From positions 1,550,001 to 1,614,000 of the forward strand of contig NZ_AP012334.1 of the NCBI RefSeq assembly GCF_001042695.1: a stretch of DNA of 64,000 nucleotides, given 5' to 3'. The notes under the pieces are model-generated. The model had not been told where the DNA came from. It searched no databases and saw only the letters and a list, made by a program, of their open reading frames with translations. A program made the position numbers and the translations under genes. Positions 4,744 through 41,613 of this stretch are shown piece after piece. Every line of letters starts with the position of its first letter. Position 1 is the first letter of the stretch. Origin of the DNA: Scardovia inopinata JCM 12537 (lineage in GTDB: Bacteria; Actinomycetota; Actinomycetes; Actinomycetales; Bifidobacteriaceae).

Positions 4744-4872
4744 TATAATGTTGGTAAGAAAAAGGAAGCCCCGCGTGAACAGGACTTCCCGTGTAGAGCC
4801 GCTTAAGACGGTGACAAATTTATACAGTTTAAATAACCGCTAGCTTGCCAGAGCTAAGGCGGTTATTTTTTT
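4744..4872 (+). ncRNA. predicted antisense RNA antitoxin of the holin-like toxin
   Basis: An extended -10 promoter (TG-n-TATAAT, 4741-4749) drives transcription to the right into the 3' end of the toxin gene. The predicted RNA of roughly 115 bases begins near 4756. It contains a GGAAG...CTTCC hairpin and ends in the hairpin at 4832-4867 followed by eight T. Its 3' part is complementary to the toxin mRNA. This is the layout of type I systems of the TxpA/BsrG and Fst groups; the boundaries are inferred. Confidence 0.6.
4832..4870. terminator. terminator shared by convergent toxin and antitoxin RNAs
   Basis: A hairpin with arms AATAACCGC/GCGGTTATT plus inner TAGCT/AGCTA (AG bulge) and an eight-T tail ends the antitoxin RNA. 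Read on the other strand, the same stem lies at the end of the toxin mRNA and includes the toxin's stop codon. Confidence 0.7.
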
Positions 4873-4967
4873 TGCTGACTTTTGATCAGCTCAACAATCA
4901 ATGCGATTAAGGCTACGATAAAGGTACCGAAAGCCAGCATTAATTGTAAAGCGTCCGACACGGACAC
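4863..4967 (-). CDS. holin-like toxin (Hol_Tox / TxpA-BsrG family), type I toxin-antitoxin
   Basis: A 34-residue membrane peptide starting at GTG, with AGGAG eight bases upstream. The sequence (SVSDALQLMLAFGTFIVALI, then a charged SQQKK tail) is one transmembrane helix with a basic end, as in the putative holin-like toxins of Lactobacillales and in B. subtilis BsrG/TxpA. Over-production of such peptides damages the membrane. A convergent RNA covers its 3' end and is the probable antitoxin. Such modules commonly stabilise plasmids or prophages, consistent with a mobile origin for this segment. Confidence 0.75.
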   Translation of the reverse strand: MSVSDALQLMLAFGTFIVALIALIVELIKSQQKK

Positions 4968-5000
4968 TTAGGCTACTCCTTTCGTTAGGATTTATGGGCT

Positions 5001-5018
5001 TTAAAGGTTTAACACCAT
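5001..5018 (-). other. five-codon leader ORF in the toxin mRNA
   Basis: ATG-GTG-TTA-AAC-CTT-TAA is preceded, five bases away, by a very strong ribosome binding site GGAGGTGG (5024-5031). It lies in the toxin mRNA leader 34 bases before the toxin GTG. It could recruit ribosomes for coupled translation or act as a regulatory decoy; this is inference from spacing. Confidence 0.4.
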
Positions 5019-5072
5019 AAGCACCACCTCCGATCGGAAATAGCCACCGCCTTAACTTCTCTACAGGCTTTA

Positions 5073-5101
5073 ATTATACCGAGAATTTACTATATAACCA
5101 A
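5073..5101 (-). promoter_or_regulatory. toxin mRNA promoter
   Basis: On the minus strand TTGGTT (5096-5101) and a perfect TATAAT (5073-5078) are spaced by 17 bases, about 105 bp upstream of the toxin start codon. The implied leader contains the five-codon ORF. Confidence 0.65.
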
Positions 5102-17531: not shown

Positions 17532-19700
17532 ATGCGGGTAGATTTTCAGCAGGTTCTTTCCCGACTGCGGGAAGAAAACCGGATTGCGAAAGAGAAATTT
17601 TCTCAATGCCAAACCTTCATCACCCGCATCTCAACATTTTCACTATCCTCCTACCAACTAGAAGGAGCAGCTTACAGAGCCTGGGAAAAAACGCTCCACA
17701 GTCGAATAATTTTTCTCAAAGCCCAATGGAACACATGGAACGCGCTCAGCCAAGACAACCAGCATCACATCACCCTCATCACCAGTCTCATGGGCAAAGG
17801 ACTACCCTCGGTTATCGATACTGACCAGATCACCGGACGCATAACAGAATGCAACCGCAGAATCACCATTATCAATGAACAGAAAAACCAACTTGGAATC
17901 CCGCGCAACAATCAACTTAACGACCCCACTACTTCTCCCAACCCTCTGACCTACCCCGACCCACAAATCAATCTTCTCAGCAGCAACATCAACCTGCTGA
18001 CTGCTCTGCGCACCAGCCTGCAGCATCAGCTCGACCTGTTCAACGATTACCAGTGCAAAGCCCGTTCTATTTATGCTCAATCCACCAGCCAAGCACACCT
18101 ATTAAACCAGGCGAACACTGCCATGCAAGCCATCGCCAGCGGGCAGACCCCCACCATGACCTGGACCACCACAGTAGACACCACCTATGATTCCAACAAC
18201 CTTAAAGGTATTAAAGCCGCCCTCAGCCCGGCACAATATAAAGCACTCATGGATGCCCTGATAATAACCAAAGGGCGGCCAGAGCTAGGCAGTCTGGACC
18301 CAAAGAAGCTATACTCTGATGGGAAAATTAACACAAACCTGTGGCAGGCCCTCTTCCACCTGCCCGCCCAATACATCACCGAGAACATGAGCACCGCAGC
18401 CGTCAAAGCTCTCGAAAACATGGCATCAGGGCAAAACAACACAAATAAGCCAGACATAACAAACCTCAATAAAGTAATTCGCTGGGCATTTATTCGAGAT
18501 GGGCAGAAAACAAACGTTACAGTTTTTGATCGCGCACCTACAGATCCAGCAAACTATGTACATAATATCACCTTACAAGCCTACGGCTATAAGCTCAGTC
18601 CTTTCTCTCTGCGCATGCTTTCCAGCTCCAAGGCTCTCGTGAACCAACAATCATCAACAAAAAATTCAGCAGAAAAATATCAATGGTCCAACAGGGCAAT
18701 GATAAACCAGATGCTGCAGATGCTTGCCTCCGTCCGCACAAAAAAATTAAATGACAAAAACTCTATCTGGGATTGGTCCAAAACGGGGCTAACAATAAAA
18801 GCTGGCTTAGGAACACCCAAAAAAGATCCTAATGCTGCACGCATGATTGTCCTGTCTATCCAACCCACTTATACTCTGCCATTCAGCGGCAACAGACTCC
18901 CCACACCTGATTTAAGCCAATATTCAGTAGGGTTCAGTGGGACTGCTAATAAAGTAGCCACCCTCTTACACACTCTCCAGAATAATCCAGAAGACAACGA
19001 TGATTACAACTTCTGGTGGGATCTGGCAAAACTATCTTTCAAAGAAGCCGCCAGTGAATGCGTTGGATTAATACCAGGAGTAGGCACTGGAATTTCTATA
19101 ATTCAAGGAATTCTTGATGTTATACTAACCAGCAATGACGATAAGAATCAAGCTGAAGCAAAACGCTTACAGGCGAAACGACTTAACAAGCTTGCAGGAC
19201 TGATAGACCGGATATCAGGCAACCCAATTTTCAACAGATCCGATACCAACTTATTCGGTCTAGGTGTCACTTTCATAAACAACCCAGGAATAACTGGCGA
19301 AGGGAACTACACCGATCCATCCCACCTCAACATACTCGTTGACAATCACAAGCGAGCGGAGCTCCTCAACCTTCTCAGTGCGTATGACAAGGCAACAGGG
19401 AAATATTATTCATATAACGATTTCATTAACGCAATTAGCCATCACTTTATCGATATTTTTTCGACAAAAAAAGCAACTGGTGATACTGCAAAATTCCTGG
19501 AATGGTGCGGACAAGATGCTGATTTAGTCTACAAGCATGATCTTATTGATAAATACGGTACGCTGCACAAGGCAGGATCCCCGGTAATATTAACCTCCAC
19601 ACAACCATCAAACTACCAGTACTACACAGATACAGACGGACAATACGATAACTATCAGCTTCGTTCCCAATATTTAGCGGAGCAGAAAGCAGGACACTAA
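17532..19700 (+). CDS. LXG-domain-like protein, candidate type VII secreted effector
   Basis: A 722-residue protein with no signal peptide. Residues 1-220 are long alpha-helices opening with MRVDFQQVLSRL and containing LEGAAYRAW at 43-51, the L-x-G-x-AY pattern of LXG domains (type VIIb secretion targeting). The middle is of unknown fold. A glycine-zipper-like hydrophobic stretch, GLIPGVGTGISIIQGILDVIL (about 510-530), is like those of membrane-depolarising LXG toxins. Residues 658-722 form a tail shared with the next two genes. GGAAGGGG precedes the ATG. Neighbours are membrane proteins and Lap-like helical proteins. Secretion by a T7SS and toxicity are inferred. Confidence 0.6.
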   Translation: MRVDFQQVLSRLREENRIAKEKFSQCQTFITRISTFSLSSYQLEGAAYRAWEKTLHSRIIFLKAQWNTWNALSQDNQHHITLITSLMGKGLPSVIDTDQITGRITECNRRITIINEQKNQLGIPRNNQLNDPTTSPNPLTYPDPQINLLSSNINLLTALRTSLQHQLDLFNDYQCKARSIYAQSTSQAHLLNQANTAMQAIASGQTPTMTWTTTVDTTYDSNNLKGIKAALSPAQYKALMDALIITKGRPELGSLDPKKLYSDGKINTNLWQALFHLPAQYITENMSTAAVKALENMASGQNNTNKPDITNLNKVIRWAFIRDGQKTNVTVFDRAPTDPANYVHNITLQAYGYKLSPFSLRMLSSSKALVNQQSSTKNSAEKYQWSNRAMINQMLQMLASVRTKKLNDKNSIWDWSKTGLTIKAGLGTPKKDPNAARMIVLSIQPTYTLPFSGNRLPTPDLSQYSVGFSGTANKVATLLHTLQNNPEDNDDYNFWWDLAKLSFKEAASECVGLIPGVGTGISIIQGILDVILTSNDDKNQAEAKRLQAKRLNKLAGLIDRISGNPIFNRSDTNLFGLGVTFINNPGITGEGNYTDPSHLNILVDNHKRAELLNLLSAYDKATGKYYSYNDFINAISHHFIDIFSTKKATGDTAKFLEWCGQDADLVYKHDLIDKYGTLHKAGSPVILTSTQPSNYQYYTDTDGQYDNYQLRSQYLAEQKAGH

Positions 19701-20886
19701 CCATGACTCAAGACCATGAGAACCAAACCAGTAGAAACTCCGCCAACCCCCGCGACTGGCTGTGGATTATCCTCATTCTTCTGATTATCCTCTCACCCTT
19801 ACTCTACCTTCTCAGTAAAACAGGAATACTCGCCATCCAAAACAAGATAGAAGAACCACAACGAGAACAAGCAACACAAGTAGCTAACATGGAATTCTAC
19901 TACACCGCCACCCTACGCCAAGCCGACCCCACCATGATCGGCACCATCTTCAAACCAATACCCAAAAACTTCACCAAAAACAACAACCCCAACACCTGGA
20001 TGACAGACCCCATCAAACCCAGCGGAAAAAAACTATTAGCAAAACTCATCACCGCATACAATCAAGACAACCCCACACAGAAAACCAACATCACCCAAAT
20101 ACAAGACTACTACGGCAAAAACTGGAAAACCAACTGCACCAACAACACCAACAACCCAGTACAACAATTCACCCTCTGGTGCGGACAAGATGCTGATTTA
20201 GTCTACAAGCATGATCTTATTGATAAATACGGTACGCTGCACAAGGCAGGATCCCCGGTAATATTAACCTCCACACAACCATCAAACTACCAGTACTACA
20301 CAGATACAGACGGACAATACGATAACTATCAGCTTCGTTCCCAATATTTAGCGGAGCAGAAAGCAGGACACTAACCATGACTCAAGACCATGAGAACCAA
20401 ACCAGTAGAAACTCCGCCAACCCCCGCGACTGGCTGTGGATTATCCTCATTCTTCTGATTATCCTCTCACCCTTACTCTACCTTCTCAGTAAAACAGGAA
20501 TACTCGCCATCCAAAACAAGATAGAAGAACCACAACGAGAACAAGCAACACAAGTAGCTAACATGGAATTCTACTACACCGCCACCCTACGCCAAGCCGA
20601 CCCCACCATGATCGGCACCATCTTCAAACCAATACCCAAAAACTTCACCAAAAACAACAACCCCAACACCTGGATGACAGACCCCATCAAACCCAGCGGA
20701 AAAAAACTATTAGCAAAACTCATCACCGCATACAATCAAGACAACCCCACACAGAAAACCAACATCACCCAAATACAAGACTACTACGGCAAAAACTGGA
20801 AAACCAACTGCACCAACAACACCAACAACCCAGTACAACAATTCACCCTCTGGTGCGGACAAGATGCTGATTTAGTCTACAAGCAT
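19503..20886. repeat. tandem duplication, 674-bp unit, two copies plus 36 bp
   Basis: Unit 1 is 19503-20176, unit 2 is 20177-20850, and the first 36 bases recur at 20851-20886. I saw no difference between units. Each unit holds the last 198 bases of the effector gene and the first 474 of the membrane-protein gene. The 36 bases common to both original genes are the probable recombination point. Confidence 0.92.
19703..20374 (+). CDS. single-pass membrane protein carrying the effector tail (chimeric copy 1)
   Basis: A 223-residue protein starting two bases after the effector stop. A short Asn-rich cytoplasmic start, one transmembrane segment at 19-38 (LWIILILLIILSPLLYLL), then an external region rich in Asn, Thr and Lys. 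Residues 1-158 are identical to the following gene. Residues 159-223 (from WCGQDADLVYKH) are identical to the last 65 residues of the effector. It appears to be the product of the tandem duplication: membrane-protein body with the effector's tail. An immunity or anchoring role is a guess from position. Confidence 0.7.
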   Translation: MTQDHENQTSRNSANPRDWLWIILILLIILSPLLYLLSKTGILAIQNKIEEPQREQATQVANMEFYYTATLRQADPTMIGTIFKPIPKNFTKNNNPNTWMTDPIKPSGKKLLAKLITAYNQDNPTQKTNITQIQDYYGKNWKTNCTNNTNNPVQQFTLWCGQDADLVYKHDLIDKYGTLHKAGSPVILTSTQPSNYQYYTDTDGQYDNYQLRSQYLAEQKAGH

Positions 20887-21045
20887 AATGTCACCGACCC
20901 AGACGGAACCGTCCACCACAAAGGAGAACCTGCAAACCGGGATGATCCCCCAACAAACTACCGATACACAAAAGCAATGAACAATGATTACAAAGACTTC
21001 ATCCCACGTTCCCAATATTTAGCGGAGCAGAAAGCAGGACAGTAA
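20377..21045 (+). CDS. single-pass membrane protein (copy 2, original tail)
   Basis: A 222-residue protein identical to the preceding one up to WCGQDADLVYKH (residue 170). It then has its own variable stretch (NVTDPDGTVHHKGEPANRDD) before ending in the same RSQYLAEQKAG. It has one transmembrane segment near the N-terminus. This is probably the ancestral form. The tail is homologous to that of the effector, with identical ends and a divergent middle. Two bases separate it from the gene before and after. No known family recognised. Confidence 0.72.
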   Translation: MTQDHENQTSRNSANPRDWLWIILILLIILSPLLYLLSKTGILAIQNKIEEPQREQATQVANMEFYYTATLRQADPTMIGTIFKPIPKNFTKNNNPNTWMTDPIKPSGKKLLAKLITAYNQDNPTQKTNITQIQDYYGKNWKTNCTNNTNNPVQQFTLWCGQDADLVYKHNVTDPDGTVHHKGEPANRDDPPTNYRYTKAMNNDYKDFIPRSQYLAEQKAGQ

Positions 21046-21047
21046 CC

Positions 21048-21461
21048 ATGCTAGAAAACACCAGTACTTCCCAGTACCTGCAAGATGCATATTGGCAAGC
21101 CGATCAGACAATGAATCGCCATCAAAAAGAGTTAGAAGAACAGGATAAAAACATTACTCATACCTATCATTACGCTCAAAGTCAGATGGAGGGGGCTAAC
21201 CAGCAGACTATCACCACCATTCGCTTCGTTAACGAATACCTTGCAGCCCTGACAGATATAGGGCAAGAAGGCAGACAGCTCCTTGCAGATGTCAACAATC
21301 TGGAGAGTTTACGCATCATGGCTTTGAGCAAACTGGACGATTTAGCCCAGGAACAGGCAAAAGCCAGGCAGCGACTCGACGACCTCTACAACCAGTATGA
21401 GCAGGAACATCAGACTGCTATCAGACAGCTCGACCGTCAACGAGAATTGAACAACCGCTAA
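21048..21461 (+). CDS. coiled-coil protein, Lap2/DUF3958-like
   Basis: A 137-residue, wholly alpha-helical, Gln/Glu-rich protein without signal or membrane segment. Length and pattern (an early KELEEQDKNITHTYHYAQ helix, late LDDLYNQYEQEHQTAIRQLDRQR) resemble the DUF3958 proteins that in Firmicutes bind LXG domains as targeting partners (Lap2). It begins two bases after the membrane-protein gene and belongs to the same operon. The assignment rests on size, helix pattern and neighbourhood rather than a decisive motif. Confidence 0.5.
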   Translation: MLENTSTSQYLQDAYWQADQTMNRHQKELEEQDKNITHTYHYAQSQMEGANQQTITTIRFVNEYLAALTDIGQEGRQLLADVNNLESLRIMALSKLDDLAQEQAKARQRLDDLYNQYEQEHQTAIRQLDRQRELNNR

Positions 21462-32728: not shown

Positions 32729-32816
32729 ATTTACGAATGTACACCGTAGTCAGAATGGATTTTATCCATACCCTCTTCCTGCACGACCAGACCGATACGA
32801 GTTATAGCGAACCACC

Positions 32817-32896
32817 CCTCACCCAACTGCACTATACGAAAAATAAAATGGCAAAAAATAGCCAAAATAAAATTCTACCGATACAGTTGGGTGAGG
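32817..32896. repeat. 80-bp hairpin element, copy 1
   Basis: Begins CCTCACCCAACTGCAC and ends CAGTTGGGTGAGG. Together with six flanking bases on each side (ACCACC / GGTGGT) the arms make a 19-bp perfect stem (32811-32829 with 32884-32902). The interior is AT-rich. The same ends, at the same 80-bp spacing, occur at 39848-39927. It is not coding. A miniature transposable element or a structured RNA is possible. Confidence 0.7.
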
Positions 32897-33109
32897 GGTG
32901 GTGGGGAAATAACCATGATTTTATCAATCAAAGTCCCGCACTCCAAAATTATAAAATTTTACGTAGTGCATTTTTATAATTTTAATACCTTATTTGACAA
33001 CAAAACTCGCTGGAACAGCATTACTCATAAAATTAAAATTATTGCGAAAGGGGACATTCACATGAAAAAGTATATTGAGACCATAAAAATCATTTGATAA
33101 ATTTTGTAA

Positions 33110-39360: not shown

Positions 39361-40163
39361 CGGGTATATCGAATAGATTTATTTTTCGTGAACCGTTTAA
39401 GGGGTTCTAACTTCCTTGGACTTATTCAGCACAACGAGTATGAAAATGCATTCATTAGAGCATACTCATAAAAACACATGTGCAGAAATCATACGCAGAA
39501 ATCATACGGGTTTAACGCCCATCATAACAACAAGCATAGCAGCAAAATGTTCTATCCACCGCGCAGGAAAATATACACCACACAACCGCTTTATCTTTCC
39601 CCACCTTTGGCTCCTGCATTCGCATTCAGCGTTGCACTCTACTCCTTTCCTTACCTACAACCCTATCGACCTCATCTTCGACCTCGACTTTTTAAACTTC
39701 TCCATTCAACCCTGCACTCTCTGGGAAACGAACACTATTAAATTCCAAAAATGGCTACTTTACTGGAGTCCTTCGCATAAAAATGGGGAAAGTTGATAAT
39801 ACATTATCTTTCGATTCCCCTCCTAAAGAGGTTGATAGGGAAACAGGCCTCACCCAACTGCACAGTAAAAAAATTGAAACCTTGGAATTACGCCGATTCT
39901 TATTTTAATCTATGCAGTTGGGTGAGGCCTGTTTTCCTATCACAACAATTTTTGCCGAATTCAGGATCGGAGCACTGAGAAGCCAGTAATAGTTAACATA
40001 GTTAACAACCGACTGCTGAGGACTACTCAATGCACGCCTTTTCCTCAGTCGGTCTTTTAGTTCTTTTAGTATAAGTAGTCTAATCATGTCCATCTACAAT
40101 TATAGTATTATTATTCATATTTGTTATCTTTATATTGGTTATATAGCATAGGAAGGGCTCAAT
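39361..40163. other. long intergenic region with second hairpin element
   Basis: No gene. It includes a 13-bp tandem repeat CAGAAATCATACG (about 39483-39508), C-rich stretches, and the hairpin element at 39833-39942. Open frames here have no ribosome binding sites and unlikely compositions. Confidence 0.5.
39848..39927. repeat. 80-bp hairpin element, copy 2
   Basis: Begins CCTCACCCAACTGCAC and ends TGCAGTTGGGTGAGG, exactly 80 bp apart as in copy 1. With flanks, the arms form a 30-bp stem (39833-39862 with 39913-39942) with a single G-T pair. The flanking parts of the stem differ in sequence from those of copy 1. The interior is AT-rich and unlike that of copy 1. Confidence 0.72.
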
Positions 40164-40457: not shown

Positions 40458-40666
40458 CTTTTCACAGATTCCCGGCCTTCTTAAACGAGCAGGACAAAAT
40501 TTAAACAATATAAAAATATAAAGCGACATAAGGAAGGAAAGCGACTTAGCCCCGGCAATATCCATAATCCATAGCAGGATTCATACATAATCGGTAAACA
40601 CGAGAAACATCCATTGTTTTAGCTAGGAAGTCATAAAGAAAAACAGTCCTCTACATCATCAGCACC
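40458..40666. other. intergenic, no gene seen
   Basis: An AT-rich gap of about 200 bases upstream of the coupling-protein remnant; no promoter, repeat or ORF can be supported. Confidence 0.4.
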
Positions 40667-40801
40667 ATGCGCAACCGAAACATCAGCGTATCTGTCATAC
40701 TCCAAACCATCAGCCAAATAAAAGCACTATACAAAGACGACTGGGAAACCCTCACAGTCAACTGTGACAGCACACCCTTCCTCAGCCAGAAACTCACCTA
40801 A
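40667..40801 (+). pseudogene. conjugative coupling protein (TraG/VirD4-like) fragment
   Basis: An open stretch encodes RNRNISVSVILQTISQIKAL followed by YKDDWETLTVNCDS. It matches the conserved TraG/VirD4 region (…RNISV-ILQ-LSQ-KALYKDDWE-I-GNCDS) just before the Walker-distal motif. The expected following GG-N motif is missing and the frame ends early, so only a 44-codon scrap remains. It indicates that a conjugative plasmid or integrative element once lay here. Confidence 0.65.
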
Positions 40802-40873: not shown

Positions 40874-41176
40874 TTATTTGTCCAGAATTTCATGGGAACC
40901 AGTTGCTACGAGCAGCAAAACTAATTCATCAAGGTCTAAACGATAAACAACCACCCAACCATCATAGGAATGCCCATAATTGCCATACCGAGAAGGATGA
41001 AACTCTCGATACCCTTTCCACCTACCCTGCAACGCATGATCCTTAATCCGCCGTAAAACCACTTCATCATGATCAACAATACCCCGCACACAAGGCTTTA
41101 AAACTTTAACCGGGAAATGCTTTTTAGCTAGCTTCTTCACCTGACGATTAAACAACCGGGTTGTTTTAATCTGCAT
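40874..41176 (-). CDS. RelE/YafQ-like mRNA-interferase toxin
   Basis: A 100-residue toxin (ATG at 41176 inside the antitoxin's last codons; the open frame upstream is not translated). MQIKTTRLFNRQVKKLAKKHF and the RRIKDHALQGRWKGYREFH segment are the pattern of YafQ/RelE toxins, with the final HEILDK similar to the family's HsdLF end. It would cut ribosome-bound mRNA when freed from the antitoxin. It overlaps the antitoxin by 11 bp, as is usual for such pairs. Confidence 0.82.
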   Translation of the reverse strand: MQIKTTRLFNRQVKKLAKKHFPVKVLKPCVRGIVDHDEVVLRRIKDHALQGRWKGYREFHPSRYGNYGHSYDGWVVVYRLDLDELVLLLVATGSHEILDK

Positions 41177-41444
41177 CAATCCGGTCAATCCACTCATTGA
41201 AATCATCTAAAGTTCCCACAGTCTCTACCTGACCATTCTCAGCCTCCTTTTTCGCAGCCAATGCCTCGGGCGAATCCAAAAAACTCACAAGCTTAACCTC
41301 ATTATTAGCAGCCTTAACTAACGATAAACGCACATATTCCGAAACAGTAAGCCCCTGTTTAGCCAAATTAGCCTTCGCTCGTTCGCTCACATCAGAAGTA
41401 ACCCGAGTAGAAATAGTTTTATTTTTAATAACAGTAGTACTCAT
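41166..41444 (-). CDS. RelB/DinJ-family antitoxin
   Basis: A 92-residue antitoxin. The ATG at 41444 is preceded by GGAG nine bases away, better than the ATG at 41459. The N-terminal ribbon-helix-helix is NKTISTRVTSDVSERAKANLAKQGLTVSEYVRLSL. The C-terminal part is acidic (TVGTLDDFNEWIDRIDAD) and would wrap the toxin. The TCGTACGA palindrome at 41475-41482 is a candidate autoregulatory site. Confidence 0.82.
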   Translation of the reverse strand: MSTTVIKNKTISTRVTSDVSERAKANLAKQGLTVSEYVRLSLVKAANNEVKLVSFLDSPEALAAKKEAENGQVETVGTLDDFNEWIDRIDAD

Positions 41445-41613
41445 TATCATATGCTCCATTCAGTATGCTTACAATCGTACGACAATCCGTATACTCAACA
41501 ACACGCCATAACTCACGCCAATGAAGAGTGGCATTGCATTCTTTTCAAGAAAGAAATATAGTAGCTCACTGTGTTATCCCATAGGTGCAACAACCAGACT
41601 GGTTAACCAGGTG

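Follow-up and report, generated by a model that had tools for sequence, protein, structure and literature searches.

Two hairpins in the window

The window is a stretch of 64,000 bp from the genome of Scardovia inopinata JCM 12537. It contains an inverted repeat (39833-39872 with 39903-39942) whose predicted fold is far more stable than expected by chance: z-scores range from -9.7 to -11.1, and none of 200 shuffled sequences is equally stable. The hairpin consists of an 80-bp core, in which two 15-bp arms (CCTCACCCAACTGCA and TGCAGTTGGGTGAGG) enclose an interior, and of a basal stem specific to the locus. It is referred to here as copy 2, and a related hairpin in the same window as copy 1 (Table 1). 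A search of Rfam returned no match at either of them.

An earlier note on this DNA described the two copies as having the same ends and length, different interiors, and different but well-paired basal stems. Both cores are indeed 80 bp long and their left arms are identical, although the right arm of copy 1 carries one change (TACAG for TGCAG). The basal stems are as described: copy 2 has 15 paired bp in its stem, and the stem of copy 1, which differs in sequence, pairs continuously over 6 bp. The interiors are identical at 23 of 50 positions.

Table 1. Hairpin features in the window. Matches to the covariance model (CM) are given in genome coordinates; the model was built from family copies that include these two.
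Feature	Position	Strand	Basis or remarks
Copy 2, core element, 80 bp	39848..39927	. (interior orientation +)	Sequence, family alignment and CM match (C1:1589828-1589947, E=3.6e-29)
Copy 2, arms	39848-39862 and 39913-39927		50-bp interior at 39863-39912
Copy 2, basal stem, left half, locus-specific	39833..39847	.	15 consecutive pairs with 39928-39942, one of them G-T
Copy 2, basal stem, right half, locus-specific	39928..39942	.	Pairs with 39833-39847
Copy 1, core element, 80 bp	32817..32896	.	Sequence, family alignment and CM match (C1:1582797-1582916)
Copy 1, arms	32817-32831 and 32882-32896
Copy 1, basal flank, left, short, paired	32811..32816	.	6 bp with 32897-32902
Copy 1, basal flank, right, short, paired	32897..32902	.	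Hairpin 32811-32902

Several other features lie in the window. A fragment at 40656-40783 shares about 80% identity with three places in another Scardovia genome (G001), where the translation of its context resembles, by eye, a TraG/VirD4-type coupling protein. The fragment is therefore probably what is left of a conjugative element; a YafQ/RelB-type toxin-antitoxin pair adjoins it at 40874-41459. Adjoining Rfam matches to RatA (+) and rli28 (-) at 4746-5088 form a pair like those of type I toxin-antitoxin RNAs. Finally, a tandem array with a period of 674 bp occupies 19503-21050, and 300 bp are identical between two of its copies.

A dispersed family in Scardovia inopinata

The genome of the window is designated G000 and its contig C1; G001 and G002 are genomes of the same genus. 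Pattern and covariance searches of G000 find 12 copies with these arms and one divergent copy of 79 bp, so that the two copies seen by the earlier reader belong to a dispersed family of 13. Eleven of the 12 are exactly 80 bp long. The remaining one (C1:21685-21776) measures 92 bp, and its surplus length sits in the interior.

The arms are near-invariant across the family in this genome, which bears out the conservation of the apical ends that had been proposed from two copies. The interiors are about half identical and clearly homologous (alignment score 1422, against 832 +/- 20 for shuffles), and they can be aligned free of indels in 11 copies. Because the family shares this homology, the "different" interior of the earlier note is better described as a common interior that has diverged.

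All copies are intergenic, except for overlaps with short or start-extended reading frames. Their neighbours are unrelated to one another and include rho with chorismate mutase, manC, glutamine synthetase, a thiolase and CorA, among others. Divergent gene pairs flank about five copies, tandem pairs five and convergent pairs two. A consistent position downstream of genes, as intrinsic terminators would have, is thus not found, and the suggestion that the element targets terminators is not supported.

Paired changes in the basal stem, also anticipated from the two copies, are present. The covariation score is 0.400, compared with 0.189 +/- 0.040 in shuffles (0/500 as high) and 0.222 in the best slid control. 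In the basal stem (14 bp), paired cells make up 74% of the total (61.2 +/- 2.8% in shuffles) and 24 cells are changed on both sides (11.3 +/- 2.5 in shuffles, with slid controls well below); past about 14 bp, pairing falls sharply. Compensatory evolution, insertion into palindromic targets or quasi-palindrome correction could each produce this pattern, and the basal stem in this species may be either a palindromic target or a portion of the element.

Pairing within the interior does not exceed that of shuffles and no covariation is found there, and a covarying RNA in the interior was rejected on this ground. A preference for one strand, judged from G-U against A-C pairs, was set aside: the outer stem leans 14 to 5 toward G-U in the chosen orientation, and the arms have no such lean.

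The outer flanks often end in TATA. A TA duplication of the IS630 type was looked for, and no clean empty site was found. The search for empty sites covered the manC region, which is too diverged in G001 and G002, and two Bifidobacterium sites, which gave no clean empty allele; no target duplication was seen. Exact arm patterns have no match in other genome contigs or in viral contigs, a result that shows only that the dialect is local. The element itself, used as a query, has no match in plasmid and phage DNA.

Arm dialects

The G000 arms are wholly absent from both of the other Scardovia genomes. A covariance model built from the G000 copies nevertheless finds full-length relatives in each. 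In G001 the elements are 82 bp long with arms AAGTGGCACTNAACGCAAGTA; in G002 (Scardovia wiggsiae F0424) there are at least 18 copies of 83-84 bp with arms CTGGTGGTAAAACACGCAGATA. The elements of the three species have a single architecture of 80-84 bp, with arms that are completely different from species to species.

The 26 copies from the three species align without gaps over 84 columns. A central A-tract, a GGAAA..GCC motif and a T-tract are preserved, and changes in one arm are mirrored in the other. Both bases are altered in 21 of 22 stem pairs, and the covariation score is 0.732 (0.220 +/- 0.020 for the control); since the selection of elements already presupposes paired arms, it is the change of dialect that counts here.

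The flanks of the G001 and G002 elements pair for only 0-3 bp beyond the element, and neither a TA-ended flank nor a visible duplication is found. For this reason palindromic targets, the other explanation offered in the earlier note, are not a general rule. On account of these unpaired flanks and the positions between divergent genes, terminators or palindromic targets were rejected as a general reading.

A search of 189 Bifidobacteriaceae genomes with a model built from the 26-copy alignment (R2), which is geared to a single arm class, gives relatives in 29 of them. These elements come from three genera and are mostly 80-86 bp long. Their arms are again genome-specific, and more than one arm type occurs in some genomes. 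A copy in G000 (C1:1455803, excluded from the 13) bears the G002 dialect, as expected from transfer between species. In two further genomes (G145 and G151, loci L234 and L246), hairpins of different dialects lie at what is apparently one orthologous intergenic site, downstream of one gene. This shared site could reflect vertical descent rather than mobility.

A nuclease gene bordered by hairpins

In all three Scardovia species, a gene encoding a DUF559-type nuclease of about 300-400 amino acids has one copy of the element 65-80 bp upstream. In G000, for instance, the copy at C1:435545 stands 79 bp upstream of such a reading frame (C1:435707-436852). Homologues of the nuclease adjoin elements in G001, G142 and G145, on both sides in each, and in G002, and a truncated homologue does so in G073. 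In G142 and G145 the final codons of the nuclease fall inside an element arm.

Relatives of the nuclease are found by a profile search in 110 of the 189 Bifidobacteriaceae genomes, as against the 29 with elements recognisable to R2 and its one arm class. A genome scan with a narrower alignment gives three loci only.

At the 30 loci with the highest nuclease scores, hairpins end 65-111 bp 5' of the start codon, straddle or closely follow the stop codon, or do both. Counting to about 250 bp from either end of the gene gives 18 hairpins, compared with 0.54 expected from a Bifidobacterium background of 13 hairpins in 360 kb. This is a density about 30 times that of the background, and the enrichment is partly circular because nuclease score set the ranking of the loci and the seeds were taken from loci adjacent to elements. 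Shuffled flanks of the nuclease genes contain no hairpins. Loci such as L202, L204, L205, L207, L215, L221, L229 and L230 were not seeds, and similar arms stand on both sides of the gene in L202, L215, L221, L229 and L230 as well. Several nuclease loci have no detected hairpin.

Two loci add detail from Scardovia. At L229, in G001, a nuclease gene has same-arm hairpins of a second dialect at 1392-1462 and 2800-2878. At L225 (G000 C1:1396300-1401300), the end of the second DUF559-type gene of that genome lies about 290 bp from a different hairpin, whose arms are CTCACCTAACACGAAATTG.

The arrangement extends beyond the Bifidobacteriaceae. A tblastn search of plasmid records gives seven nuclease relatives outside the family, three of which have same-arm hairpins at both ends (L254 in Arthrobacter, L255 and L256 in Tsukamurella); a fourth has one hairpin. 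The L255 hairpins recur at 20 places and those of L254 at nine in the same strains, where each site was probably counted on both strands. At nuclease genes there and in Bifidobacteriaceae other than Scardovia, the two bordering hairpins often have identical arms.

Dispersed hairpins also resemble the nuclease-linked hairpin of their own genome. Their arms match it best in 28 of 29 cases in Scardovia and in 39 of 56 overall. The other 17 best match the hairpin of another genome, and such genomes often have several nuclease genes, not all of which are covered. Because dispersed and nuclease-bordering hairpins have a species-specific arm in common, these results suggest that the nuclease may spread or maintain the hairpins.

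The partner protein

DUF559-type proteins are widespread, common among actinobacteria and poorly characterised, and to our knowledge their role is unclear. Of 18 members, 13 match the Pfam DUF559 model (PF04480) with E-values of at most 0.1 and a best value of 1.1e-5; matches lie only at or below the curated cut-off, several of them under it. REase_MTES_1575 matches 11 of 18. Among known structures, the nuclease profile reaches 3hrl, which is endonuclease-like, at E 3e-4; its match to the mobile intron protein 3r3p is weak (E 0.04).

Positions occupied by E, D, H and D are conserved in the nuclease alignment and are the putative catalytic residues. One closely related pair of nucleases has a dN/dS of 0.10 at a dS of about 1, a sequence signature of purifying selection on that pair. 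An AF2 model made from three sequences reached a pLDDT of 45, too low to support a fold. A distant relative has a marginal match to AbiEi_1 (E 0.03).

Comparison with known systems

REP transposases are thought to spread or maintain REP palindromes. In REPtrons (TnpA-REP, RAYT), as at the loci described above, a gene is bordered by palindromes and many more are dispersed elsewhere. REPINs consist of two short conserved arms, inverted around a variable spacer of set length, and compensatory changes have been reported in their spacers (PMC3116915, PMC8266576). The Scardovia elements resemble them in their inverted conserved short repeats, variable spacer and intergenic dispersal. However, the bordering gene encodes a DUF559-type nuclease rather than a Y1_Tnp/RAYT protein. 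Copies number about 10-25 and not hundreds, and there is no REP headed by a 5' GTAG; CTAC/GGTAG occurs at the reverse end, in one species only. The Y1 HUH transposase (PF01797) is found in none of the three Scardovia genomes, by a search that was positive in five control genomes. The hairpin-nuclease system is therefore not a REPtron.

In IS200/IS605 elements, a gene lies between end hairpins and the right hairpin is at the end of the reading frame. The nuclease gene has the same layout, which is also like that of PATEs. Unlike these, it is not accompanied by a Y1 transposase, and the elements are near-complete palindromes of 60-110 bp.

MITEs such as RUP and Correia elements are likewise short, intergenic, inverted-repeat and multicopy. 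The present elements differ in their tie to a nuclease gene and in the lack of an IS630-type parent: transposase DDE_3 is found neither in G000 nor in G001, and once in G002. In G000 the subterminal arms are also more conserved than the ends. RAYT and IS630 partners were accordingly dropped as candidates.

Vsr-like/EDxHD homing endonucleases share with the nuclease the conserved E, D, H and D and a C-terminal domain, which is weakly similar to 3r3p and better to 3hrl. The nuclease described here differs in lying outside any intron or intein, flanked by hairpins, and in having a separate N-terminal region; its hairpins are also dispersed without the gene.

Evolutionary model and alternatives

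The hairpins of the window are probably non-autonomous members of a dispersed palindrome family, whose cognate enzyme would be the DUF559-type (Vsr/EDxHD-like) nuclease encoded elsewhere in the genome. The full unit would comprise a hairpin, about 65-110 bp, the nuclease gene and, at its stop codon, another hairpin. The enzyme is predicted to bind DNA, most likely recognising the 15-22 bp arms, whether these form duplex inverted repeats or a hairpin that is extruded or single-stranded, and to cut at the arms or at targets. A reaction based on repair or strand transfer would then copy hairpins to further intergenic sites. If arm and nuclease co-evolve, a dialect would be peculiar to a species or, inside one species, to a nuclease lineage, whereas the length would stay fixed at about 80 bp and the central A-tract, GGAAA..GCC and T-tract motif would be retained.

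A broader proposal, judged slightly less likely than not, is that hairpin-bordered DUF559 nucleases constitute a new class of mobile or dispersal system. Such a system would spread palindromes in trans, with co-evolving arm dialects, across Actinomycetota (Bifidobacteriaceae, Arthrobacter, Tsukamurella).

The same hairpins might serve as operators. The DUF559-type protein would then be an AbiEi-like DNA-binding regulator or nuclease, and the dispersed copies its regulon. Placement 65-111 bp 5' of the start codon, invariant arms at fixed spacing and the marginal AbiEi_1 match all fit, but an operator would hardly be repeated, with the same arms, across the stop codon. Nor would it be expected beside unrelated genes in convergent and tandem regions, or to conserve the central motif between its arms. 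This makes the regulatory explanation unlikely. Selection by the host on RNA or DNA hairpins (terminators, mRNA stabilisers or nucleoid sites), with the nuclease genes as passengers, appears quite improbable. It would account for the basal-stem covariation in G000, for copies between convergent genes and for the hairpins of differing arms that G145 and G151 have at one orthologous position. The roughly five copies between divergent genes argue against it, as do the density of hairpins at nuclease genes and the match of each species-specific dialect to a nuclease-linked hairpin.

Very little probability is given to an orphan MITE that is independent of the nuclease and derives from a conventional transposon, such as an IS630-like one with TA duplication. 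Terminal inverted repeats, fixed length and the TATA-ended flanks of G000 point that way, but G001 and G002 elements are without such flanks or a visible duplication. The transposase searches covered DDE_3, with no match in G000 or G001, and Y1, with none in the genus. An orphan MITE would also leave unexplained the hairpins at nuclease genes in several families.

Implications

A literature search of incomplete coverage found no paper joining DUF559 with inverted repeats or with an actinobacterial endonuclease. The pair of bordering hairpins and the dispersed hairpins with the same arms provide a concrete candidate substrate for DUF559-type proteins. If a dispersal system is the correct reading, it would give a role to this protein family. 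If the nuclease does move the hairpins, the system would be an analogue of REPtrons that arose with an unrelated enzyme, and it would bear on the origin and maintenance of REP-like palindromes.
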